DNA of 64,000 nucleotides from an uncultured Colwellia sp. (lineage in GTDB: Bacteria; Pseudomonadota; Gammaproteobacteria; Enterobacterales; Alteromonadaceae), in contig CAJXQI010000006.1 in NCBI GenBank assembly GCA_913058395.1, forward strand, positions 1 through 64,000, given 5' to 3'. Below are positions 27,305 through 38,865 of the stretch, one piece after another. Numbering within the stretch: the stretch's first letter is position 1; every line of letters begins with the position of its first letter. A model generated the notes under the pieces. The model did not search any database, had not been told where the DNA came from, and saw only the letters and a program-made list of their open reading frames with translations. Both the position numbers and the translations under genes were made by a program.

Positions 27305-27381
27305 CGGTGATTAGCGCAGCTTGGTAGCGCACTTGGTTTGGGTCCAAGGGGTCGCAAGTTCGAATCTTGCATCACCGACCA
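27305..27381 (+). tRNA. tRNA-Pro(UGG)
   Basis: A 77-nt cloverleaf with encoded CCA. Acceptor CGGTGAT pairs with ATCACCG, D-arm GCGC/GCGC, anticodon stem CTTGG/CCAAG with loop TTTGGGT (anticodon TGG), and T-arm GCAAG TTCGAAT CTTGC. All stems pair. Confidence 0.97.
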
Positions 27382-27551: not shown

Positions 27552-27579
27552 GCGCCCTTAGCTCAGCTGGATAGAGCAA
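27552..27579 (+). pseudogene. 5' fragment of a tRNA-Arg-like gene
   Basis: Bases 27552-27579 (GCGCCCTTAGCTCAGCTGGA TAGAGCAA) are a canonical acceptor 5' strand plus D-arm of a bacterial tRNA-Arg. The sequence then loses cloverleaf structure: no anticodon arm and no matching AGGGCGC acceptor strand follow. It is a broken gene, not the intron-bearing one downstream, whose acceptor strand differs. Confidence 0.7.
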
Positions 27580-27764
27580 GTATTACCCCCTAGGGTATTA
27601 CCTAAACTACCAAAGTGTAAGGTTTTCGATGCGTGCAGGGTAGGTAACTTTACCCATCTTCTGATAAAAGTTACTACAATAGGTAACATGTGTTTTTGTA
27701 TTATAAATCTAGAATTTCAGATTATTTGCATTTAAATATTAGTTATTTATTATAGATATATAAA

Positions 27765-28060
27765 GGTCCGTTAGCTCAGCTGGATAGAGCATCCGCCTTC
27801 TAAAAGTAAAATTTGGGCCTTATTGGTGAAAGCCCTTAAGTGTAAGATGTCAAATTCAGGGAAACCTTCCATGTAATGATGATGGCAATCCTGAGCCAAG
27901 CCTTACGAAAGTGAGGAAGGTGCAGAGACTAGACGGCATCCACCTAAAGCGTAAGCAATGGTGAAGGGATAGTCCAGCGCACGAAGCCTCAATGGTGGCA
28001 GTGAAAACTGTAGTGTGATGAAGCGGAGGGTCACAGGTTCGAATCCTGTACGGACTGCCA
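27765..28060 (+). tRNA. tRNA-Arg(UCU) interrupted by a group I intron
   Basis: Exons 27765-27801 and 28021-28060 join to a 77-nt tRNA with encoded CCA. The acceptor GGTCCGT pairs with ACGGACT (one G-U), the D-arm is GCTC/GAGC, the anticodon stem is TCCGC/GCGGA with loop CTTCTAA (anticodon TCT), and the T-arm is ACAGG TTCGAAT CCTGT. The insertion lies between tRNA positions 36 and 37, directly after the anticodon. Without removal of the 219-nt insert the anticodon arm cannot form, so this gene depends on self-splicing. Confidence 0.93.
27802..28020 (+). ncRNA. Group I (IC3-type) self-splicing intron in tRNA-Arg
   Basis: The 219-nt insert shows the conserved group I core in order: P-like GTCAAATTCAGGGAAACC (27849-27866), Q-like GGCAATCCTGAGCCAAGCC (27884-27902), R-like GCAGAGACTAGACGGCA (about 27922-27938) with CCACCTAAAG following, and S-like AAGGGATAGTCCAG (about 27964-27977). 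The R/S strands GACTA and TAGTC can form P7. The 5' exon ends in U and the intron ends in G, as expected. The core closely resembles the Azoarcus tRNA-Ile(CAU) intron, which has the same 36/37 position. There is no room for a homing endonuclease. The P1/P2 pairing could not be settled by eye; UCU with GGG at 27814-27816 is one option. Confidence 0.92.
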
Positions 28061-28558
28061 TATCTTTTTATTTATATCTCGCCATTTATATTTTCTAATA
28101 ATTAAACTTCTTAAATATATCGATTAATATTCTATTTAAGCTCTCTGATATTCAACTTAAGCAACTAACACTAACTTTAAATACCATTATTCCCTTGAGC
28201 TAAGCTCAATCATACATACTCTTCTGCCTCGCATTAGCGTTTATGCGATCTGAACTAACTAAAATGTGAAAGCTGATTTATTAGATAAGGCATCAATCTC
28301 GCACGCGATAACTAATCTTCTTTTGAATGTAATTCAATTTCACTCGTACCTTACTTGTTCTTTGTAAATCCAAAGCATACTTGATTTAGATATATTCCGA
28401 TTCATTTGTCTTAGATGTGTTTTATTTATAAAACAGTGCCAAATGATATTTAGAATATTTAATTTTTAGTATAGATTTCAGTGTATTAACTGTGAAATAA
28501 TGACCGTTAGGAGTTAATTAATAGGAGGTGACATAAAAAATATTATTGAGGTAATAAA
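28061..28558. other. AT-rich gap at the core/accessory boundary
   Basis: No gene or RNA is recognisable in these 498 bases between tRNA-Arg and the first accessory gene. One short stretch (AAAATGTGAAAGCTGA, about 28260-28275) resembles the intergenic TGTGAAAGAG motif seen elsewhere. It must hold the promoter of the downstream cassette. Confidence 0.5.
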
Positions 28559-29005
28559 ATGAGCGTAAATTGTTTTTATAAGAGCGAATTAAAAGAGGAG
28601 TTGAAAAAAGAGCTACTTCACAGCAATGATTTAAGTAAGAAAGAGTTGGAGTTTCTGCACTTTATGTTATTTGAAATAATTAAAGTGTACGAATTTTCAA
28701 AAATTTTAATTCAACAAAATGTAAGTGTTGCTGGTGACGAAGGCGTCGAATATTTATATTTTATAGACGGTCAATACTTACCGTTCCCCCAACGAAAAGA
28801 TTACGCTAGATATGTTTTTAACAAATCTAAATTTGCGACAGATTTAAAAATGTCTTATCAATATCACAATCGCTATGGCGAATTCCTTACTAAATTTCTA
28901 GAAGCTGCTACAGCAGCATTACTTGATTATGCTGTTTCAGGTGTATTTAAAGACATAATAAATACTGGTAGGCTATTTGTTAATCCGGCAATGGAAACGG
29001 TTTAA
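28559..29005 (+). CDS. Unknown protein, first gene of QueC/PfkB-NDT cassette
   Basis: A 148-residue soluble protein that I do not recognise. It has a charged helical N-terminus (KSELKEELKKELLHSNDLSK), a central YLYFIDGQYLPFPQRKDYAR and a helical C-terminal part. No nucleotidyltransferase motif (no G-S with paired acidic residues) is present, so it is not a CD-NTase. GAGGT precedes the ATG with good spacing. It is followed on the same strand by three genes of the cassette, although 149 bases separate it from the next. Confidence 0.65.
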   Translation: MSVNCFYKSELKEELKKELLHSNDLSKKELEFLHFMLFEIIKVYEFSKILIQQNVSVAGDEGVEYLYFIDGQYLPFPQRKDYARYVFNKSKFATDLKMSYQYHNRYGEFLTKFLEAATAALLDYAVSGVFKDIINTGRLFVNPAMETV

Positions 29006-29154
29006 TGTGCTTTTTATTCTCCTAGTTTTGGATACATAAAGATGAACCAAATCAAATATATGCTTTATTACTCAATATACTGTTGTAAATGCGCCTGTTT
29101 GTTAATAATGTAACTATTGTCTTTGGAATAGTATTAATTTGACAAGGAGCTTGT

Positions 29155-29487
29155 ATGTCAAGTGGTGGATTTAGCGCACCTCCGAGAGGTGCTGGTGGGA
29201 TTGTAGACGATAATGTTTGCTCAAGCTTAGTGTTTGTAACTAAAGTAGCAAATGCTGATGAAGATTTGATTGACGATCTAAATGAAGGAATGTTGCTTGA
29301 TGTAAGCCTTGTTATTGAAAATGGCGTGGAATCGGTTGCTATCTTATTTCGAGATCAGGTTTTAGGTGGGATCATGAGTCATGGTGTTCAATTAAAATCA
29401 TGCCTTAGCAATGACTTTGAATTTGAAGCGATTGTTTTATCTGTATCTATGGGGATCATCACGATCAAAATCCAACCAAGGAAGTAA
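29155..29487 (+). CDS. Small protein with Gly-rich N-terminus, possible modification substrate
   Basis: A 110-residue protein with an unusual flexible start, MSSGGFSAPPRGAGGIVDD, then a compact beta-rich domain beginning CSSLVFVTKVANAD, with EGMLLDVSLVIENGVESV and a C-terminal FEAIVLSVSMGIITIKIQP. I do not know a named family. It has AAGGAG upstream and its stop is one base before the next ATG, so it is translationally linked to the kinase/NDT fusion. With a QueC-like enzyme in the same operon, the Gly-rich N-terminus is a candidate target for nucleobase conjugation; this is inference. Confidence 0.72.
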   Translation: MSSGGFSAPPRGAGGIVDDNVCSSLVFVTKVANADEDLIDDLNEGMLLDVSLVIENGVESVAILFRDQVLGGIMSHGVQLKSCLSNDFEFEAIVLSVSMGIITIKIQPRK

Positions 29488-29488
29488 T

Positions 29489-30724
29489 ATGGAAATTTCT
29501 TTCGTAGGAGGCGTATATAAGGAAAATTGCGCCTGGCCTGCTAATTATGAAGTCTTAGGATCTGCTGGACGAGCTGCGTTATGTGTTGCTCAGTTGGATA
29601 GTTCCACAAAAGTAGAGTTAATATCTTCTTTTTCTAATGAAGAAATGGTTGAGCTTAAAGAGCGGTTTGTTGGTAGGGAAGTTAATGTTAAAAATTTTGA
29701 GCAACCAATAACGTATCTCTTTTCATACGATCACCCTTTATCAGAGCCTGTTGTCGAGCCTAAACTAACAAACGAAACCGAAATTCTACAGCTAGAACTT
29801 GATGGCTTTGACGACAAGCTTGTGGTCATGTTTGGTATGATTGAAAGGGATGTAAAGATCAAATGTAAATCGGTTATTTATGATCCTCAGAATTCTGCCT
29901 CTCCTCAATTATTTTCTAACAGCGGCTCTTTGGCGGATGAGTTAATTTACGTTCTAAACCGAGATGAGCTGTCCAAGTATTATTTTGAATCAAATAGCGA
30001 TGAAGAATATGATATTGAGCGAATGGCTTCTTGGTTGTTGGATAAGGAAAGCGCTAGTGCTGTTATTGTTAAATGCGGGGCGCGTGGTGCATTTGTATTT
30101 ACAGCGGCACAGGGTAGTCAGTGGGTTTGCTCTTATAGAAGTAAAAAGGTATCACCAATTGGCTCTGGTGACGCGTTTGTTGCAGCCTTTGCGCATTATT
30201 ATTTTGTAAGACGATTTGATGCATTCAAATCGGCAAATCTCGCTAGTGTTGCAACATCATTTTATGTCGAACATTCTATGATGGTGAGTGATAAGCAACT
30301 TGCTCAGTTTCAGGTTAACTTGGTTGCAAATTCCTTAGAGAATGAATCAGATAAAAAGAACATATACTTGGCTGGGCCATTTTTCAACATGGGTCAGATG
30401 TGGTTGATTAACCAAAGCAAAATAGCGATGGAAAAATTTGGTATGGATGTTTTCAGTCCTTATCATGAGTTGGGGATCGGCCCAGCAGAAATTGTTGCAC
30501 AGGCTGATTTACAGGCCATTGATGATTGTGATGTCTTGTATGCACTTTTTGATGATCATGATCCAGGTACATTGTTTGAAATAGGTTATGCGATAAAGGC
30601 AGGTAAAAAAGTAATCATTTACACAGAGCAAAATAATGACGAGCACTTAAAAATGTTTGAAGGGACAGGTTGTGAAATTGTAAGAGACTTTGCTACTTCC
30701 ATCTATAGTTTGTCTTGGGTGTAA
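29489..30724 (+). CDS. PfkB-like kinase fused to nucleoside 2-deoxyribosyltransferase
   Basis: A 411-residue two-domain protein. Residues 1-285 resemble the PfkB/ribokinase family, with the anion-hole and catalytic-base motif PIGSGDAFVAAFAHYY (Asp228); the N-terminal substrate half is divergent. Residues 290-385 are a nucleoside 2-deoxyribosyltransferase: NIYLAGPFFN, DCDVLYALFDDHDPGTLFEIGYA with catalytic Glu364 and GKKVIIY. Together they could phosphorylate a nucleoside or sugar and move or cleave nucleobases. Start ATG 29489 follows the previous stop by one base. The QueC-like gene starts 7 bases after its stop. Confidence 0.9.
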   Translation: MEISFVGGVYKENCAWPANYEVLGSAGRAALCVAQLDSSTKVELISSFSNEEMVELKERFVGREVNVKNFEQPITYLFSYDHPLSEPVVEPKLTNETEILQLELDGFDDKLVVMFGMIERDVKIKCKSVIYDPQNSASPQLFSNSGSLADELIYVLNRDELSKYYFESNSDEEYDIERMASWLLDKESASAVIVKCGARGAFVFTAAQGSQWVCSYRSKKVSPIGSGDAFVAAFAHYYFVRRFDAFKSANLASVATSFYVEHSMMVSDKQLAQFQVNLVANSLENESDKKNIYLAGPFFNMGQMWLINQSKIAMEKFGMDVFSPYHELGIGPAEIVAQADLQAIDDCDVLYALFDDHDPGTLFEIGYAIKAGKKVIIYTEQNNDEHLKMFEGTGCEIVRDFATSIYSLSWV

Positions 30725-30731
30725 TTTATCC

Positions 30732-31319
30732 ATGATAGGTATTTTGTTATCTGGTGGTATGGACTCAACGGCTTTAGCTTATTCTGAGCAGCCTGATATA
30801 GGCATTTTCATCGACTATGGTCAAATACCAGCGAAAGCAGAGCGAAACTCTGCAAGACGTATCTGTGCTGATTTAAATATAGAGTTTTATGAAATTAGTG
30901 TGGATTGCTCAGCGTTGGGCACAGGAGATTTAGTTGGGACCTCTTCTTCAGAAATCGGTCGTTTTTCTGATTGGTGGCCTTATAGAAACCAATTACTAAT
31001 AACAATGGCAGCAATGAAAGCCATTAAATTAGGTTGTAATGAATTAATGATAGGTCTTGTTGCTGGAGATGATGAGTATAGAGATGGCTCGGAGGAGTTT
31101 ATACGGCTTATGAACCAGTTGGTTAGTTACCAAGAAGGAGAGTTAACAATATCAGCTCCGGCAATAAGTAGGAGTATTCATGAGTTAATTACTAGAGGTA
31201 ATGTTCCAGATCACCTACTTGCGAAAACTTATTCATGTCACAAAGCTAATCTGCCTTGCTTTAGTTGTCGAGGCTGTGGAAAGCAACAAGCTGTATTTGA
31301 TAAATTGAAAGTATTGTAG
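30732..31319 (+). CDS. QueC-like 7-cyano-7-deazaguanine synthase family protein
   Basis: A 195-residue PP-loop ATPase. It has the nucleotide-binding loop ILLSGGMDSTALAY at the N-terminus, a QueC-like WWPYRNQLLITMAAMKA segment, and a C-terminal zinc-type cluster with Cys in YSCHKANLPCFSCRGCGKQQ. QueC makes preQ0 from carboxydeazaguanine, but its homologues in defence loci (Cap9 of type IV CBASS, QatC) have other roles. No queD, queE or folE partner lies nearby, so this is unlikely to be the queuosine-pathway enzyme. It ends the cassette; a MerR gene starts 8 bases later. Confidence 0.87.
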   Translation: MIGILLSGGMDSTALAYSEQPDIGIFIDYGQIPAKAERNSARRICADLNIEFYEISVDCSALGTGDLVGTSSSEIGRFSDWWPYRNQLLITMAAMKAIKLGCNELMIGLVAGDDEYRDGSEEFIRLMNQLVSYQEGELTISAPAISRSIHELITRGNVPDHLLAKTYSCHKANLPCFSCRGCGKQQAVFDKLKVL

Positions 31320-31327
31320 GTTAAGAA

Positions 31328-31705
31328 ATGAAAACAATAGGAAAGCTAGCGAAATCACTTGACTTGAATGTTGAGACTATTCGCTTTTATGAGCGAGAAG
31401 GTCTTATTCAACAGCCTAAAAAGCCTCTTAATGGCTATAGATTATATTCTGAATCTACTGCTAGAGAGTTGAAGTTTATTTTAAAAGCTAAGGCACTTGG
31501 TTTTACACTTCATGAGATATCTTCACTAATGTCAATGGATGGAAACTGTAGTCAGGTAGAAAAAATGGGTTTGCAAAAGCTCGAAGTCATTCGTTATAAA
31601 ATATCAGAATTACAACGTTTAGAAAAAGTGATAATTCAGATGACCAATACATGTAAAAGCAATGATAACGAGTCTCACTGTCCAATAATTGATTCATTAA
31701 AATAG
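31328..31705 (+). CDS. merR: MerR-type mercury-responsive regulator
   Basis: A 125-residue MerR family regulator: N-terminal winged helix (IGKLAKSLDLNVETIRFYER), then the dimerisation coil. Cys74, Cys109 and Cys118 have exactly the 35- and 9-residue spacing of the Hg(II) ligands Cys82, Cys117 and Cys126 of classical MerR, so mercury sensing is likely. It lies 8 bases after the QueC-like gene and just upstream of a MerR-type promoter driving merC. Being on the same strand as merC rather than divergent, it may be transcribed from the upstream cassette. Confidence 0.9.
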   Translation: MKTIGKLAKSLDLNVETIRFYEREGLIQQPKKPLNGYRLYSESTARELKFILKAKALGFTLHEISSLMSMDGNCSQVEKMGLQKLEVIRYKISELQRLEKVIIQMTNTCKSNDNESHCPIIDSLK

Positions 31706-31707
31706 TA

Positions 31708-31738
31708 TTGACTCCGTAGTCGTATACGGAGTTTATCC
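31708..31738 (+). promoter_or_regulatory. MerR-type promoter and operator
   Basis: TTGACT (31708-31713) and TTATCC (31733-31738) are separated by 19 bp, the overlong spacer of MerR-activated promoters. The spacer region contains the perfect dyad ACTCCGTA (31711-31718) / TACGGAGT (31725-31732), very close to the classical mer operator. Confidence 0.92.
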
Positions 31739-31771
31739 TTAAACTAAGATTTCAAAAAAAATTATTTTATA

Positions 31772-32161
31772 ATGTTCAGTAAAGTTTTAGATAAGGTAGG
31801 CTCTGGTGGTGTTTGGATAGCAGCGCTTAGTTGTACGGCATGTTTCCCTGCTCTTGGCTCGTTAGCATCCGCTTTAGGCTTGGGTTTTCTCTCTCATTTT
31901 GAAGGTATCGCAGTAAATACTTTGTTACCGATATTTGCAACGTTGGCCTTAATAGTAAATTTATATAATTGGTATAAAAATCAAAATCACATTAGAGGTT
32001 TGTTTGGTGTAATTGGACCAATAGCGGTTTTGTTAACCCTTTATCCGCTTTGGCAGTATGGGTGGAGCACTTACTTGTTTTATGTTGGTATTTGTTTGAT
32101 GGTCATCATGTCAATTGTAGATCTTGTTAAGTCTGTTAAGGAGCCACTATGCAAAGTATAG
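31772..32161 (+). CDS. merC: MerC-family mercury transport protein
   Basis: A 129-residue inner-membrane protein with four hydrophobic helices and the metal-binding SCTACFPALGSLASALGLG motif in the first helix, as in MerC. It would import Hg(II) or a related thiophilic metal. It is directly under the MerR-type promoter. No merA reductase or merP is in the window, so a complete detoxification route is not shown. It overlaps the next gene by 13 bases. Confidence 0.88.
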   Translation: MFSKVLDKVGSGGVWIAALSCTACFPALGSLASALGLGFLSHFEGIAVNTLLPIFATLALIVNLYNWYKNQNHIRGLFGVIGPIAVLLTLYPLWQYGWSTYLFYVGICLMVIMSIVDLVKSVKEPLCKV

Positions 32162-32364
32162 AGCTTACTTCAACTCTCACTTGCCCGGAGTGTGGTCATG
32201 TTAAGAGGGAAGAAATGCCAACCAATGCATGCCAGTGGTTTTATGAGTGTGATTCTTGTAAAGCGCTTTTGAAGCCATTGAAAGGTGATTGTTGTGTTTT
32301 TTGTTCTTATGGGACAGTTAAGTGTCCACCGATACAAAAAGGGCAAAGTTGCTGTAATGAATAA
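32149..32364 (+). CDS. GDCCVxxCSYG-type small Cys-rich protein
   Basis: A 71-residue cytoplasmic protein with two Cys pairs (TCPECGH, ECDSCKALL) and the signature GDCCVFCSYGTVKCPPIQ. The small family is commonly found next to merC-like genes and probably binds metal. It overlaps merC and is translated with it. Function is not established. Confidence 0.85.
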   Translation: MQSIELTSTLTCPECGHVKREEMPTNACQWFYECDSCKALLKPLKGDCCVFCSYGTVKCPPIQKGQSCCNE

Positions 32365-32457: not shown

Positions 32458-33306
32458 TTAAGCTAATGCTAATTCAGGTGTATATGAGGTTTTCTTACGA
32501 TTAATATACACGATGGTATTTTTACTTATAGTGCCATTTTTAACTTGTTCTCTGTTTTCAAGTAGTCGATGAATAGAAGAGCTTTGTTGCATTTCATACC
32601 AGATTACGGCATCAAGTTCAGATGCTTTAACTTGCATCGCTTTTGCTAGGTCAATAAATATTTGCTCTAGTTGGAGGTAGTTTTTTTCTATCGTCAAATG
32701 ATCATCGTAGAAACCGCCTAATAGCCCTGCACGGTAGATATGAATATCCAAAATAGCCACATCATCAGCATCTAGCCAGTTTCGAGCAACCCATGATGCT
32801 GTTTTAAGGCCAACGCCTTTGATTTGTAATAGCCAGTTTCTTAGCGCTTGTCCTGATGTAGTAGGAGCTTTTTCATCGTGTAAAAATTGTAGTGCGTTAG
32901 CAATGTATTTAGCTTTTTGACGGGCGAATCGGTACTTTACGGTGCGATTGGATAGTTGAATTGGCTCTGTAAGCCATTCTAGCAACTTTGATTCAGAATG
33001 AGGTGTTCCATCAAAAGCTCCTTTGAGCTTAAGTTGTTCGTAGGCAGCGATACTGATTTCAGCCGTTATAGCATGTCCACCTAATAGGCAAGCACCTACT
33101 TCTTCTGTTAATGTTTTTCCATGTTTGTATTCTAGTTCATTGCCTTCAATCCGTCTGGATAGGACGCTATACAGCCAATAAGCGACAGTTGGAAATCCAA
33201 TAACACTTCCCCATTTTACTCCAGGCATTACATCTTCAAATTCACTGGGAATATCTATTTGAATAACACTTTTACCTACTTCTACAAATGCTTTTTGATA
33301 GTTCAT
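32458..33306 (-). CDS. OGG-fold HhH-GPD DNA glycosylase
   Basis: A 282-residue protein with the helix-hairpin-helix and GPD signature LLQIKGVGLKTASWVARNWL followed by DDVAILDIHIYRAG. The catalytic Lys (in GVGLKT) and Asp (in ILDIHI) of 8-oxoguanine-type glycosylases are both present. The N-terminal ~120 residues are unlike housekeeping Ogg. Start is ATG 33306 because AAGGTG lies just upstream; a GTG three codons earlier overlaps that site. It begins 10 bases after the adenine methylase stop, so the two are one operon. OGG-like proteins are also known as components of QueC-containing conflict systems. Confidence 0.87.
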   Translation of the reverse strand: MNYQKAFVEVGKSVIQIDIPSEFEDVMPGVKWGSVIGFPTVAYWLYSVLSRRIEGNELEYKHGKTLTEEVGACLLGGHAITAEISIAAYEQLKLKGAFDGTPHSESKLLEWLTEPIQLSNRTVKYRFARQKAKYIANALQFLHDEKAPTTSGQALRNWLLQIKGVGLKTASWVARNWLDADDVAILDIHIYRAGLLGGFYDDHLTIEKNYLQLEQIFIDLAKAMQVKASELDAVIWYEMQQSSSIHRLLENREQVKNGTISKNTIVYINRKKTSYTPELALA

Positions 33307-33316
33307 TTTAATCACC

Positions 33317-33970
33317 TTAAATAGTGAACTCTTGGTTCAGCCATTCCATAAAAGCAGACCTTTCCTGTGTATCCATGTTTGTAAATTTTTGTTTTAATCT
33401 ATCAATACGCCTTTTAATTGTTTGGCGTTCTCTGAAACAATTTCCTAGGTAGCGTGGATCGTGCAATTTTGTTGGTCTTTCAAAATTAAACCATACGCAC
33501 TCTTTCGCTGTACCATTTTGTGTCTGACTGCTGAAACTATATAAGTTCCAATCGTTTAAATAATGTTTATATAAATCGCTTTCATAACCAGAGATCATGA
33601 TCATACATTTTTGATCTACGAGAAATTTCAATAGTGTTTCATGCTGTTCATCACTGTATTCATGGCGATAAATTTTTCTTTTTTTTCTGGTAGAGGCAAC
33701 ATAAGGAGGATCACAATATATAAGTGTTTCATTACATAAGCTTTCTTTCTCAAGTAATTGAATAGCATCCATATTGAGTAAAGTTAAGCTTGGCTCGTCT
33801 GTCATATTATCTAAACAGTTTTTATTGATATCGTTTCCGATATTAATTTTTGCTTCTAGCTTCTTTTTGATAACGATGCCAGACCCTAAAAACGGCTCGA
33901 TGTACTTTCTATGCCTAGGCATCAAATTTATTAGATGCTGATAGGTTTTTCCTTTACCACCTGGATACAT
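33317..33970 (-). CDS. D12-class N6-adenine DNA methyltransferase
   Basis: A 217-residue Dam-like methylase. It has the AdoMet motif KYIEPFLGSGIV, the catalytic DPPY in LIYCDPPYVAST and the N-terminal MYPGGKGKTYQHLI. It is shorter than housekeeping Dam and ends in a charged helical region. It is the first gene of a two-gene unit with the glycosylase and has no linked restriction endonuclease. Target sequence cannot be read from the protein. Confidence 0.88.
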   Translation of the reverse strand: MYPGGKGKTYQHLINLMPRHRKYIEPFLGSGIVIKKKLEAKINIGNDINKNCLDNMTDEPSLTLLNMDAIQLLEKESLCNETLIYCDPPYVASTRKKRKIYRHEYSDEQHETLLKFLVDQKCMIMISGYESDLYKHYLNDWNLYSFSSQTQNGTAKECVWFNFERPTKLHDPRYLGNCFRERQTIKRRIDRLKQKFTNMDTQERSAFMEWLNQEFTI

Positions 33971-36933: not shown

Positions 36934-37356
36934 TTAATTTTCAATGAAAGTGACAGGCTTTTTGAATTTTAAGCTTTGATCTAATGCAAGTGGGATAAGC
37001 CATTTTAAATTTGGGATAATATTATTAGGGATGTTATCTATTTTTAATAAGTGTACTTGTTCTTTTTCAATAGTTTTGGCAGAAAATGCGAGATCTGATA
37101 TAGAAAAAAACACATCTAATTCAAAATAGGTTGGCTTTGTCAGATGCGCATAGCGAGTCCAGTTACTTTCACTGATGAAAACACCTGTCTCTTCTTCACA
37201 TTCTCTCACCATCGCTTGTATAGGTGATTCACCATCTTCAATTTTACCACCAACACCATTAAGTAAACCTTTTTGCCATGCAGGGGATAGTTTTTCTAAT
37301 AAAACAACATGCTGTAAATCTTTTGAAAATACAAATCCAGTAACATAGTTAAACAC
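36934..37356 (-). CDS. Nudix hydrolase
   Basis: A 140-residue protein with a complete Nudix box: GVGGKIEDGESPIQAMVREC followed by EEETGV, matching GX5EX7REUXEEXGU. It should hydrolyse a nucleoside diphosphate derivative; the MutT/8-oxo-dGTP-like subgroup is possible. It starts 18 bases after the dGTPase stop, so the two are co-expressed. Confidence 0.88.
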   Translation of the reverse strand: MFNYVTGFVFSKDLQHVVLLEKLSPAWQKGLLNGVGGKIEDGESPIQAMVRECEEETGVFISESNWTRYAHLTKPTYFELDVFFSISDLAFSAKTIEKEQVHLLKIDNIPNNIIPNLKWLIPLALDQSLKFKKPVTFIEN

Positions 37357-37374
37357 TGCTAATTACTCCGTTTT

Positions 37375-38865
37375 TTATTTTATGGCAGTTAAGTTTTGAA
37401 ATTCTTCGAGTGCAAATTGATCAGTCATACCGCTAATATAGTCAATTAATAACCTAGTTCTTGAGTATAGTTCCATCATTTTACTATTGTTAGATGGTAA
37501 TTTTTTAGCAAATATTTCTTTTACATCTTCTTTATATCGGCCTTTATGTTTGCTGGATAATTTATGGTAAAGTCTCGTTTCAATAGGATGAGATTTTAAT
37601 CGATTATCTTCAACTAAGCTTTTGAATTCATTGTAAGATAATTCAATGAGTGGCGTGTATATATTGAGTAGGCCAGATATCACAGCAAACCCTTTGAGTT
37701 CTAAGTTTTCTACTTCTCTATGGTTGAATACATTATTTACTGCAATTTTTCTGAAAGTTTCAGTAGCTAGGTTATATTCATCACTACCATCTAATAAAGA
37801 CTCATCAAGTTCGCCTCTAAATACTTGTTTATGGTTGTCGATGAACCTTTTTGCTGCATATTTTGAAAGATCATTAACTAGGGTTGTGCGCAATGTAAGT
37901 ATATATGCGTGCTCCTTATTATGATCTTCATTAAGGTAGTTTTTATATGCTTTATTGGCTATTTTAAGCAGGTAGCCACCTTCAACAACTTCATTATTGA
38001 TTTTAGGATCTTCTTTAAATTTATTCCAAGTTTTACTAATTTCATTATGAAGTTGCTCAACTGTTAATATCCCTTTATCAATTGCGTCATCTAAGTCTGC
38101 AATACAATATGAAATATCATCAGCAGCTTCCATTATATAAGTTAATGGGAAACGGCAACCATGGTCTATAGATAGCTCATTTTGTATGTCTTTAAATAAA
38201 TTTTTTTCTGAGTAGTAAAATCCTGGTTTTTTCTTTCTGTATGTGAAGGTGTCCTTTTGCCTTGGTTTATCTTCGTATGCCCCACGGGTATATTTTATAA
38301 GGCAAGCTAATTGCGTATAGGTAAGATTTAGTGATTGAAGGTTGTGGAGTAATCTAATGGCTTGTGCATTCCCTTCAAAATTAGATAGGTCTTTTATTAA
38401 TTTTTTACAGTCAGGCTCTTTAGAGAATTTCTTTTTGAAGATTTTAGTAAGGGTTTTACTCCCCCATAAATTAATGGCCTCTTCACCAAAGTGGCCAAAT
38501 GCTGGGTTGCCGATATCATGAAGTAAACACGCTACTTCTATGGCACTAATAAACCCATCTATGTTTTCAGCTAAACCTAAGCTTTCAAGTTGATCTTGTT
38601 GTGCAAGTTTTTTCAAAACAGTTTTACTGATGTATCGACCAACCTGCTGTACTTCTAAAGAGTGTGTTAATCGGCTTCTAACTGCTGCATTAGTTTCTAA
38701 GGGGAATACTTGAGTTTTTTGTTGCAAACGTCTTACAGCCGCAGAATTAATTGCACGCCCCCGATCACTTTCCATTTCTTCGTTAAAGCATCTTCCTTGG
38801 ATTGAAGAAGCGCGAGCGCGAATTGTTTTTAATTTTTGATTGTAATTCATAGCAACAAAGTCCAT
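37375..38865 (-). CDS. dgt: dGTPase-family HD-domain triphosphohydrolase
   Basis: A 496-residue dNTP triphosphohydrolase. It has the N-terminal RGRAINSAAVRRLQQKTQVF and RSRLTHSLEVQQVGRYI, the metal-binding ACLLHDIGNPAFGHFGEEAI (His-Asp) and the downstream MEAADDISYCIADLDDAID. Such enzymes cleave dGTP to deoxyguanosine and triphosphate; some bacterial dGTPases protect against phage by depleting nucleotides. The start is uncertain (38865 or ATG 38850; neither has a good ribosome site). It leads a two-gene unit with a Nudix hydrolase. Confidence 0.9.
   Translation of the reverse strand: MDFVAMNYNQKLKTIRARASSIQGRCFNEEMESDRGRAINSAAVRRLQQKTQVFPLETNAAVRSRLTHSLEVQQVGRYISKTVLKKLAQQDQLESLGLAENIDGFISAIEVACLLHDIGNPAFGHFGEEAINLWGSKTLTKIFKKKFSKEPDCKKLIKDLSNFEGNAQAIRLLHNLQSLNLTYTQLACLIKYTRGAYEDKPRQKDTFTYRKKKPGFYYSEKNLFKDIQNELSIDHGCRFPLTYIMEAADDISYCIADLDDAIDKGILTVEQLHNEISKTWNKFKEDPKINNEVVEGGYLLKIANKAYKNYLNEDHNKEHAYILTLRTTLVNDLSKYAAKRFIDNHKQVFRGELDESLLDGSDEYNLATETFRKIAVNNVFNHREVENLELKGFAVISGLLNIYTPLIELSYNEFKSLVEDNRLKSHPIETRLYHKLSSKHKGRYKEDVKEIFAKKLPSNNSKMMELYSRTRLLIDYISGMTDQFALEEFQNLTAIK

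Follow-up and report, generated by a model that had tools for sequence, protein, structure and literature searches.

A mobile gene cassette around a Cap9-like QueC-family ligase: a candidate nucleobase-conjugation system

In an uncultured Colwellia, a QueC-like ligase is encoded beside a small protein with a near-invariant N-terminus and a kinase/nucleoside 2-deoxyribosyltransferase (NDT) fusion. Comparison with relatives suggests that these genes, called B, C and D below, belong to a further immune-type system that attaches a nucleobase to a protein. It seems to us somewhat probable, judging from sequence, that they form a mobile conflict system based on nucleobase conjugation and probably directed against phages, together with a SagB-type dehydrogenase (E), a DNA glycosylase (F) and a DNA methylase (G). 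The comparative evidence comprises gene linkage, co-variation, kept catalytic residues, the N-terminus of B, predicted folds and defence-rich, mobile surroundings.

Genes of the cassette

The window, meaning the whole stretch of 64,000 nucleotides that was analysed, holds the following features.

28559..29005, forward strand: A, 148-aa orphan upstream, judged a non-member; no family match at E<=0.1; in L001-L094 only in L022
29155..29487, forward strand: B, small putative acceptor protein, 110 aa, MSSGGFSAPPRGAGG
29489..30724, forward strand: C, PfkB-type kinase / nucleoside 2-deoxyribosyltransferase fusion (Pfam), 411 aa
30732..31319, forward strand: D, QueC-like ATP-dependent ligase, PF06508 'Cluster 4', Cap9-like, 195 aa
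31320..32457, no strand: usual place of E (SagB-type dehydrogenase) in most relatives; mer cassette here instead
32458..33315, reverse strand: F, OGG-type HhH DNA glycosylase/lyase (PF22175, 6.3e-17)
33317..33970, reverse strand: G, D12-class (Dam-like) DNA adenine methylase (PF02086, 4.2e-13)

The four ORFs A to D are intact and lie where a sequence-only reading had placed them, with the gaps that it gave of 1 base between B and C and 7 bases between C and D; AAGGAG stands 5 nt upstream of B. That reading saw a four-gene unit ending at D. B, C and D are indeed linked, but A was rejected as a member: it recurs only in L022, from Colwellia maritima (85%), among loci L001-L094 (the 18 plasmid loci lay outside this search), and searches of Pfam, PADLOC and NCBIfam gave it no match at E<=0.1. 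Nor does the unit end at D, as F and G further on also belong to it, and E, seen in relatives, had been missed as well. The window lacks E, as do both Colwellia relatives. Between D and F the window has a mercury cassette (MerR, MerC and GDCCVxC, 31328-32364). MerC and GDCCVxC are in no other locus of L001-L094, MerR has only 33% relatives there (in L019 and L028), and the mer genes were rejected as fixed members. The same applies to a dGTPase at 37375-38865; dGTPases stand near some cassettes, not as a rule.

Linkage and co-variation

D was found in 94 loci, namely 70 GTDB genome loci, 18 plasmids (of 24 plasmid matches, 18 were fetched; three of these loci are haloarchaeal), 3 IMG/VR contigs, the window and 2 further genomes; L015, L017, L018 and L019 were excluded as duplicates of loci fetched again. 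The expectation that the genes co-occur elsewhere was borne out by a neighbourhood check: C accompanies D in 92 of the 94 loci, B in 91, F in 86, E in 79 (including one fragment, L062) and G in 52 (including one copy cut by a contig end, L051), counts that are biased toward this family because the HMMs were made from early members. Both misses of C and two of the three of B fall at contig ends (L080 and L091; the third miss of B is L069), as do two of the eight of F. E, F and G are all missing from the three archaeal plasmids, L041 and L098.

The six families co-vary, with pairwise-distance correlations of r = 0.81-0.95 when L022, L051, L064, L069 and L112 are left out; the largest values among 200 permutations per pair were 0.12-0.33. 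Commonly F and G are side by side and encoded on the other strand from B-C-D; G adjoins F where present.

The ligase D and the fusion protein C

D matches PF06508 (1.3e-24, Pfam) and PADLOC QueC (2.3e-24), and scores 65.6 bits against canonical QueC (TIGR00364), below the cut-off of 150.3. Its closest solved structure in a PDB search is Cap9 (9nto). The motifs SGGxDS, YGQ(x)5E, WP(Y/F)RN, Asp118 and CH(x)5CxxCRGCxK are kept in 77-79 of 79 sequences. The Asp equivalent to D117 of Cap9, which reads the guanine edge (PMC13279940, in extract), is found in 78 of 78 ungapped sequences (79 aligned), and the position of the Cap9 stacking Tyr is His in 73/79 and Tyr in 4/79. Among 11 divergent D proteins checked by pattern, L112 lacks WPxRN, and L100 and L101 lack the Cys motif; the Asp motif of L100 could not be placed.

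The host carries a separate, canonical QueC (G000:C2:117571-118188, 2.7e-69), so D is not its sole preQ0 synthase; had D been the only one, this would have counted against the earlier proposal. In 4 of 19 host genomes, three of the four being MAGs, the search turned up neither a canonical QueC nor QueD nor QueE, so that CDG could not be the base in these hosts unless imported. On two rhodobacterial plasmids a VUT protein tagged queuosine salvage stands beside the cassette. The two Pfam domains of C are PF05014 (8.4e-16) and PF00294 (1.4e-11), and its kinase NxxE and GSGD and NDT DxGTxxExGxA residues are kept in 74-76 of 75-76 ungapped sequences (77 aligned).

The putative acceptor protein B

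The AF2 model of B (pLDDT 83.3, residues 10-15 below 50) has a poorly ordered Gly-rich tail of about residues 1-17, the N-terminal tip of which is conserved, followed by a HIRAN-like beta domain. Its top 8 PDB matches in Foldseek are chains of the HLTF HIRAN domain and lp_0118 (E 1.9e-3 to 0.07), and so are the top 12 for a homologue whose model used an overlapping alignment (E 5e-4 to 8e-3); the E-values are modest in both cases, and the predicted fold is HIRAN-like in both models. The window protein matches no Pfam family, HIRAN included, at E<=0.1, one of 60 relatives matches Pfam HIRAN, and a B profile run against PDB sequences was unproductive, as was the literature on HIRAN defence and SagB catalysis. 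B shares its predicted fold with human HLTF HIRAN, but at 8-10% identity to the HLTF chains, and B is a stand-alone protein with a Gly tail. B is thus predicted to have a HIRAN fold, and it probably binds DNA ends.

M1, C22, G71 and C83 are invariant across 73 B sequences. The N-terminus was counted in 89 of the 94 loci, leaving aside L022 (frame break in B), L112 (B without a recognizable Gly tail) and the three loci without B; the first copy of L051 and the second of L064 were used, the starts in L034, L101, L102 and L105 were assigned manually, and the start in L030 is TTG. Residue 2 is Ser in 81, Thr in 3, Gly in 3, Ala in 1 and Cys in 1, and residue 3 is Gly in 86 and Ser in 3; under the same start rule, S-G at residues 2-3 occurs in 4 of 692 neighbouring ORFs. 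The tip is far more conserved than the remaining tail, which is what a conjugation site would predict. This pattern fits the earlier suggestion that the Gly/Ser N-terminus of B may be modified, but the likely acceptor is Ser/Thr (84/89), not Gly.

All 75 loci with E have Ser or Thr at residue 2, as do 9 of the 14 that lack E (L064 is scored here by its second copy as lacking E; its other copy is followed by E). We rejected a firm dependence of Ser2 on E, since significance fades with coarser clustering of D: Fisher p is 1e-4 at 90%, 0.001 at 70%, 0.036 at 60% and 0.15 at 55%. The five cases with neither Ser nor Thr represent about three lineages, and Ser is retained in 9 loci that lack E.

The dehydrogenase and the DNA enzymes

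E matches SagB (TIGR03605) at E<=0.01 in 43 of 43 sequences tested (68 are full-length), the single member scored in full reaching 45.3 bits against a cut-off of 78.4, and matches Pfam Nitroreductase at E<=0.1 in 3 of 5 tested. Its best PDB matches, SagB-type dehydrogenase/CyaGox (8e-17), BmdC (1e-11) and McbC (0.0035), are azoline dehydrogenases of the SagB/ThcOx type; E differs from these in standing beside a QueC-like ligase. Lys171 and Asp190 of F are present in 73/73 sequences and DPPY of G in 47/47 ungapped.

Distribution and genomic surroundings

A search with C located the cassette in 3 of 247 genomes of the order, and a B profile located it in 5 of 398 of the phylum, the window's own genome being counted both times. 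An E. coli/Citrobacter version is carried, at 95% identity or above, by 10 of 5426 complete E. coli genomes. It is present in 24 of 72,556 plasmid records and in none of 50,697 phage records; the 3 IMG/VR contigs carry D. At a PADLOC threshold of 1e-10, 84 flanking proteins match 152 families and 79 control proteins match 13; dGTPase (4/84), ThsB, GajB and AriA are among the flanking matches listed, and SMODS was matched by 1/84 flanking proteins of relatives. It should be noted that the flank set was trimmed by hand from 184 candidate ORFs to one or two per locus, after some plasmid neighbours were already known, and that the controls (79 of 81 ORFs taken from 14 stretches of chromosome, two long ORFs being omitted) are unmatched in island position and taxon.

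Relation to known systems

Type IV CBASS has the small QueC-like ligase nearest to D, Cap9, whose guanine-reading Asp D retains, and a partner with a conserved flexible N-terminal tip. It differs in that no CD-NTase (SMODS) or TGT-like protein is present among the 10 window proteins scanned (Pfam), in that B is HIRAN-like with the tip M-S/T-G rather than MGGS, and in that the cassette has C, E and G in addition. In qatABCD, too, a QueC-family enzyme adjoins a partner whose N-terminal tail is disordered and has a conserved tip, MGTS in QatB (PMC13279940, in extract). D, however, has 195 aa and not the roughly 400 of QatC, is without the QatC extensions, and keeps the Asp that QatC has lost (a Thr pair replaces Tyr/Asp); B is a HIRAN-like beta protein whereas QatB is helical; and QatA (KAP ATPase) and QatD (TatD nuclease) are missing from the 10 proteins. 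The partner of Cap9 and QatB itself have Gly, in contrast to the conserved putative acceptor Ser/Thr of B. Membership of either system was rejected, CD-NTase, QatA and QatD being missing among these 10 proteins, and the earlier statement that neither a CD-NTase nor a Qat ATPase is present agrees with the same scan (Pfam, PADLOC).

The sequence-only reading also took the system to be a candidate undescribed one, which does not stand for the C-D pair, already in print as PF06508 Cluster 4 (PMC13329287, in extract). D has the SGGxDS, YGQ...E and C-terminal CH(x)5CxxCxGCxK signatures of that cluster and adjoins a PfkB-NDT gene; in that paper a PF00294-PF05014 neighbour is in the operon in ~88% of the cluster. 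The spacing in D is YGQ(x)5E, as against the printed YGQ(x)6E. The words nitroreductase, 8-oxoguanine DNA glycosylase, HIRAN and SagB are absent from the text of PMC13329287, and its Cluster 4 account, in extract, does not mention the small protein B. Searches of the literature turned up neither a description of B, E, F and G as partners nor one of the N-terminal motif.

Proposed mechanism and alternatives

Our inference, which covers the conjugation itself, its base, the sequence of steps, the binding target of B and a role in defence, runs as follows. Removal of Met from B would leave a free N-terminal amine, and D would spend ATP to join a guanine-type base to it, as Cap9 does on the CD-NTase in type IV CBASS. 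B would be a DNA-end-binding HIRAN-like protein whose flexible tail bears the base, C may supply or recycle the base or nucleotide, and E would oxidize the modified N-terminus as a finishing step. F would cut bases out of DNA and G would methylate DNA; we propose that excision and methylation could distinguish foreign or damaged DNA from self.

A more specific chemistry, which we put forward tentatively and think rather unlikely, would use the Ser/Thr of B. QueC activates an amide with a second ATP en route to a nitrile. Similarly, D might acylate the N-terminal Ser/Thr with a guanine-type carboxylate, the new amide might be activated by a second ATP, and attack by the Ser hydroxyl would give an oxazoline. 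E would then turn this into an oxazole, and the DNA-end-binding protein would carry a nucleobase-azole cap.

The base need not be CDG. TilS and GMP synthase adenylate a ring carbonyl; were D to do so with a guanine that comes from DNA or nucleotides, for example 8-oxoguanine freed by F or C, attack by the amine of B would make B a covalent reporter of base excision. The presence and co-variation of an OGG-type glycosylase in most loci, the four hosts without a CDG pathway, and a retained guanine-reading Asp with the stacking Tyr mostly replaced by His all fit this possibility. It is nevertheless fairly improbable, given that F was not found in eight loci (two at contig ends), that a VUT transporter next to two cassettes hints at deazaguanine, and that Cap9, the closest solved relative of D, uses CDG (PMC13279940, in extract).

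Two further explanations dispense with conjugation. Purine salvage was suggested for Cluster 4, with helix-turn-helix neighbours reported (PMC13329287, in extract), and C is a kinase/NDT fusion; C-D might then be a purine-salvage or small-molecule pair, with D yielding a free nucleobase and B accessory or regulatory. A small-molecule pathway would have no need, however, of a near-invariant tip on a protein found in 91 of 94 loci, and the closeness of D to Cap9, the co-variation with DNA enzymes, the defence-rich surroundings and the patchy, plasmid-borne distribution also make this quite unlikely. The adjoining of F and G on the opposite strand would suit a restriction-modification pair of the restriction-glycosylase type that is by itself the conflict module, with B-C-D-E mere cargo. 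This we consider very improbable, as the distances of F and G track those of B, C, D and E, F often occurs without G, and several alphaproteobacterial loci place F directly ahead of B on the same strand. The conjugation system set out above remains our preferred reading. Counting against it are the four hosts without a CDG pathway, the usual His in place of the stacking Tyr, the Ser/Thr acceptor, the uneven presence of E, F and G, the modest HIRAN matches, and the aberrant B or D proteins of a few loci.

Significance

Nucleobase-to-protein conjugation has been demonstrated for type IV CBASS, and for Qat it has been proposed. If our reading is correct, the cassette would be a further instance, occurring in bacteria and haloarchaea as well as on plasmids, and its acceptor, of about 110 residues, is easily assayed. 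Were E to work on the same N-terminus, this would be a protein modification with no precedent known to us. Conjugation would also replace the purine-salvage guess for an entire QueC cluster, and would connect the modification with the binding of DNA ends and with base excision.

The gene unit and its boundaries

Four open reading frames stand intact in the window where the sequence-only reading had placed them, with the gaps that it described (1 base between B and C, 7 bases between C and D). These and two genes on the opposite strand are:

28559-29005 (+), A, an upstream orphan of 148 aa
29155-29487 (+), B, a small putative acceptor protein with a Gly-rich tail and a HIRAN-like domain
29489-30724 (+), C, a PfkB-type kinase/NDT fusion
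30732-31319 (+), D, a QueC-like, Cap9-like ligase
32458-33315 (-), F, an OGG-type glycosylase
33317-33970 (-), G, a D12 methylase

With D as the query, the ORFs of D-holding loci were profile-searched for co-travelling genes. A seven-sequence D alignment gave 70 loci when scanned against genome contigs and 3 against viral contigs, and one D protein matched 24 of 72,556 plasmid records, 18 of which were fetched; the window and two further genomes bring the set to 94 loci. C was found in 92/94 of these, B in 91/94, F in 86/94, E (a putative SagB-type dehydrogenase) in 79/94, one of them a fragment, and G in 52/94. The suggested four-gene co-occurrence holds for B, C and D and fails for A, which recurs only in L022 among loci L001-L094 and was rejected as a member. 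The contig ends at D in L080 and L091, and the profile search of ORFs did not find B in L069, where C is split. In the reverse search, a B profile matched 5 of 398 genomes of the phylum (the window's own included), each with a PfkB-NDT gene directly downstream of B, in agreement with the linkage found from D.

Pairwise distances of families B to G correlate at r = 0.81 to 0.95 (15 family pairs, 46 to 87 loci each), against highest values of 0.12 to 0.33 in 200 permutations per pair, the kinship of the hosts being uncorrected. On these correlations, F and G are treated as members rather than chance neighbours.

Gene order and variants

The usual arrangement is B-C-D-E, then F, then G, with F and G on the opposite strand. 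Alternatively, F lies ahead of B on the same strand, as in sphingomonads, a Hyphomicrobiales plasmid, a Leifsonia MAG and several rhizobial, azospirillar and rhodobacterial plasmids; profile searches of the ORFs did not find G in such loci. E is absent from the ORFs of the window and of both Colwellia relatives. Between D and F in the window, where E would stand, are MerR, MerC and a GDCCVxC protein (31328-32364, +). At the position of E in a Moraxella plasmid, an anti-phage dGTPase gene overlaps the end of D (L098 6069-7559), and in Rhizobium/Agrobacterium plasmids a restriction endonuclease gene does so, replacing E (L104 6082-6801; L110 6582-7304). Different effectors may thus be attachable to a B-C-D core. 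The haloarchaeal plasmids L100, L101 and L102 have B-C-D, with Gly or Cys as residue 2 of B; E, F and G were not found among their ORFs by profile search. L051 and L064 each carry a tandem pair of cassette copies on a single contig, one copy in L064 being partial. Genes that appear broken are:

L022 6424-6756, B, one-base frame break
L021 7076-7993, C, short
L069 5803-7995, C, split
L062 8687-8887, E, fragment

The predicted fold and the N-terminus of B

An AlphaFold2 model of B (73 homologues) has a pLDDT of 83.3 and a poorly ordered start. The top Foldseek matches are eight chains from two proteins, lp_0118 (3k2y) and the human HLTF HIRAN domain. With a homologue model (60 rows), twelve lp_0118/HLTF HIRAN chains lead at E 5e-4 to 8e-3, ahead of a next match at 0.15, although this model is not independent of the first because most of its alignment rows are sequences that the first also used. 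Two of the first four matches in a viral library are named HIRAN, and the core appears, by eye, to be doubled in haloarchaeal B. HIRAN is described from bacteria too; its suggested target is the 3' end of ssDNA, and fork-like junctions were preferred in the study concerned (PMC4666394).

Starts of B were picked by a Shine-Dalgarno match and ATG, independently of protein sequence, four being set by hand. Over 89 loci, residue 2 is Ser in 81, Thr in 3, Gly in 3, Ala in 1 and Cys in 1, and residue 3 is Gly in 86 and Ser in 3; conservation then fades, the commonest residue accounting for 59/89 at position 4 and 22/89 at position 8. S-G at residues 2-3 persists in 38/46 loci after 70% clustering of D (one locus per cluster), and occurs in 4/692 neighbouring ORFs under the identical start rule. 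Removal of Met is expected before second residues this small. The pattern resembles the conserved tips MGGS of CBASS CD-NTases (type IV) and MGTS of QatB, except that B has Ser where they have Gly (PMC13279940).

D and its candidate base

The closest named relatives of D are from two Colwellia (82 and 80% identity). Among solved structures, Cap9 is the best match in both single-sequence (4.4e-10) and profile (1.9e-13; QueC 3.4e-10) searches, and GSG(D/E)LxG aligns between D and Cap9 in the profile alignment. Cap9 reads the guanine edge by D117, with Y115 stacking, and QatC is described as having neither the Asp nor the Tyr (PMC13279940). The equivalent Asp is kept in 78/78 ungapped D proteins, in contrast to QatC, whereas the stacking Tyr is mostly replaced (His 73, Tyr 4 including the window, Met 1, Asn 1). 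Retention of the Asp makes it probable that a guanine-like base is still the ligand of D. A pattern check on 11 divergent D proteins failed to match WPxRN in L112; in L100 and L101 it was the Cys motif that went unmatched.

D might have been the host's sole QueC; a canonical QueC is found elsewhere in that genome, and 15/19 host genomes have such a match in addition to D. In 4/19 (a Sphaerochaeta MAG, a Bryobacterales MAG, Hyphomicrobiales UR115 and a Leifsonia MAG) no canonical QueC, QueD (PF01242) or QueE (TIGR04508) was matched, with models that overlook some true cases (QueE in Variovorax; QueD in three QueC+QueE sphingomonads). A VUT protein tagged queuosine salvage adjoins the cassette on two plasmids. 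The survey and these neighbours make CDG, the deazaguanine base used by Cap9, a credible if tentative candidate in most hosts and a doubtful one in some.

The remaining enzymes

C retains its kinase and NDT motifs. SagB TIGR03605 was matched by 43/43 E proteins tested (E<=0.01; 68 full-length in all), and an E profile matched CyaGox and BmdC in the PDB, and McbC weakly. Enzymes of this type have a catalytic Lys-Tyr pair; among 68 ungapped E proteins, 55 have the Lys and all 68 the Tyr. The HhH-GPD site retains its Lys and Asp in 73/73 F proteins, and DPPY is present in 47/47 ungapped G proteins. Type IV CBASS also carries an OGG-like ancillary gene.

Distribution and surroundings

The cassette is rare and patchy, in 3/247 genomes of the order, 3/369 of the class and 5/398 of the phylum (the window's own counted each time); a near-identity search of 5426 complete E. 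coli genomes found it in 10. None of 50,697 phage records matched, yet 3 IMG/VR contigs did. In the two E. coli strains examined, it lies beside yjcB-pdeC-soxSR and an anti-phage dGTPase, and in one also beside UvrD-helicase and ATP-dependent nuclease genes. A NUDIX hydrolase and a dGTPase lie near it in the window (36934-38865, -), and dGTPases recur beside some relatives. At 1e-10, PADLOC matches covered 152 families for the 84 flanking proteins tested and 13 for 79 control proteins, totals that are not numbers of systems because a single protein often matches many families. TIR, PRTase-CE, SMODS and TniQ (Pfam) occur among the flanking proteins.

In the window, a group I intron (RF00028, 27798-27986, 74 bits) interrupts a tRNA gene (27766-28061, +), probably tRNA-Arg(TCT) from its CTTCTAA loop read by eye; ARAGORN did not report it, its sole call being tRNA-Pro at 27305. 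An isolated 5' tRNA half, GCGCCCTTAGCTCAGCTGGATAGAGCAAG (27552-27580, +), with no 3' half nearby by eye, is perhaps an insertion trace.

Proposed function

D corresponds to Cluster 4 of an earlier study, in which C is noted as its neighbour and purine salvage is suggested (PMC13329287). In the literature searched, mostly open-access articles without supplements, we found neither the six-gene unit nor the N-terminus of B described. A full course in which D would join the base to residue 2 of B, the Ser hydroxyl would cyclise and E would oxidise the product to a nucleobase-azole cap is unlikely as a whole. Ser/Thr at residue 2 in 75/75 loci with E, against 9/14 without, fits such an oxazole, though the association weakens with clustering of related sequences, to p 0.15 at 55%. 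For the conjugation itself, by D, of a guanine-type base to the N-terminus of B, we lean in favour; that the cassette would serve in defence is, in our judgement, rather probable.
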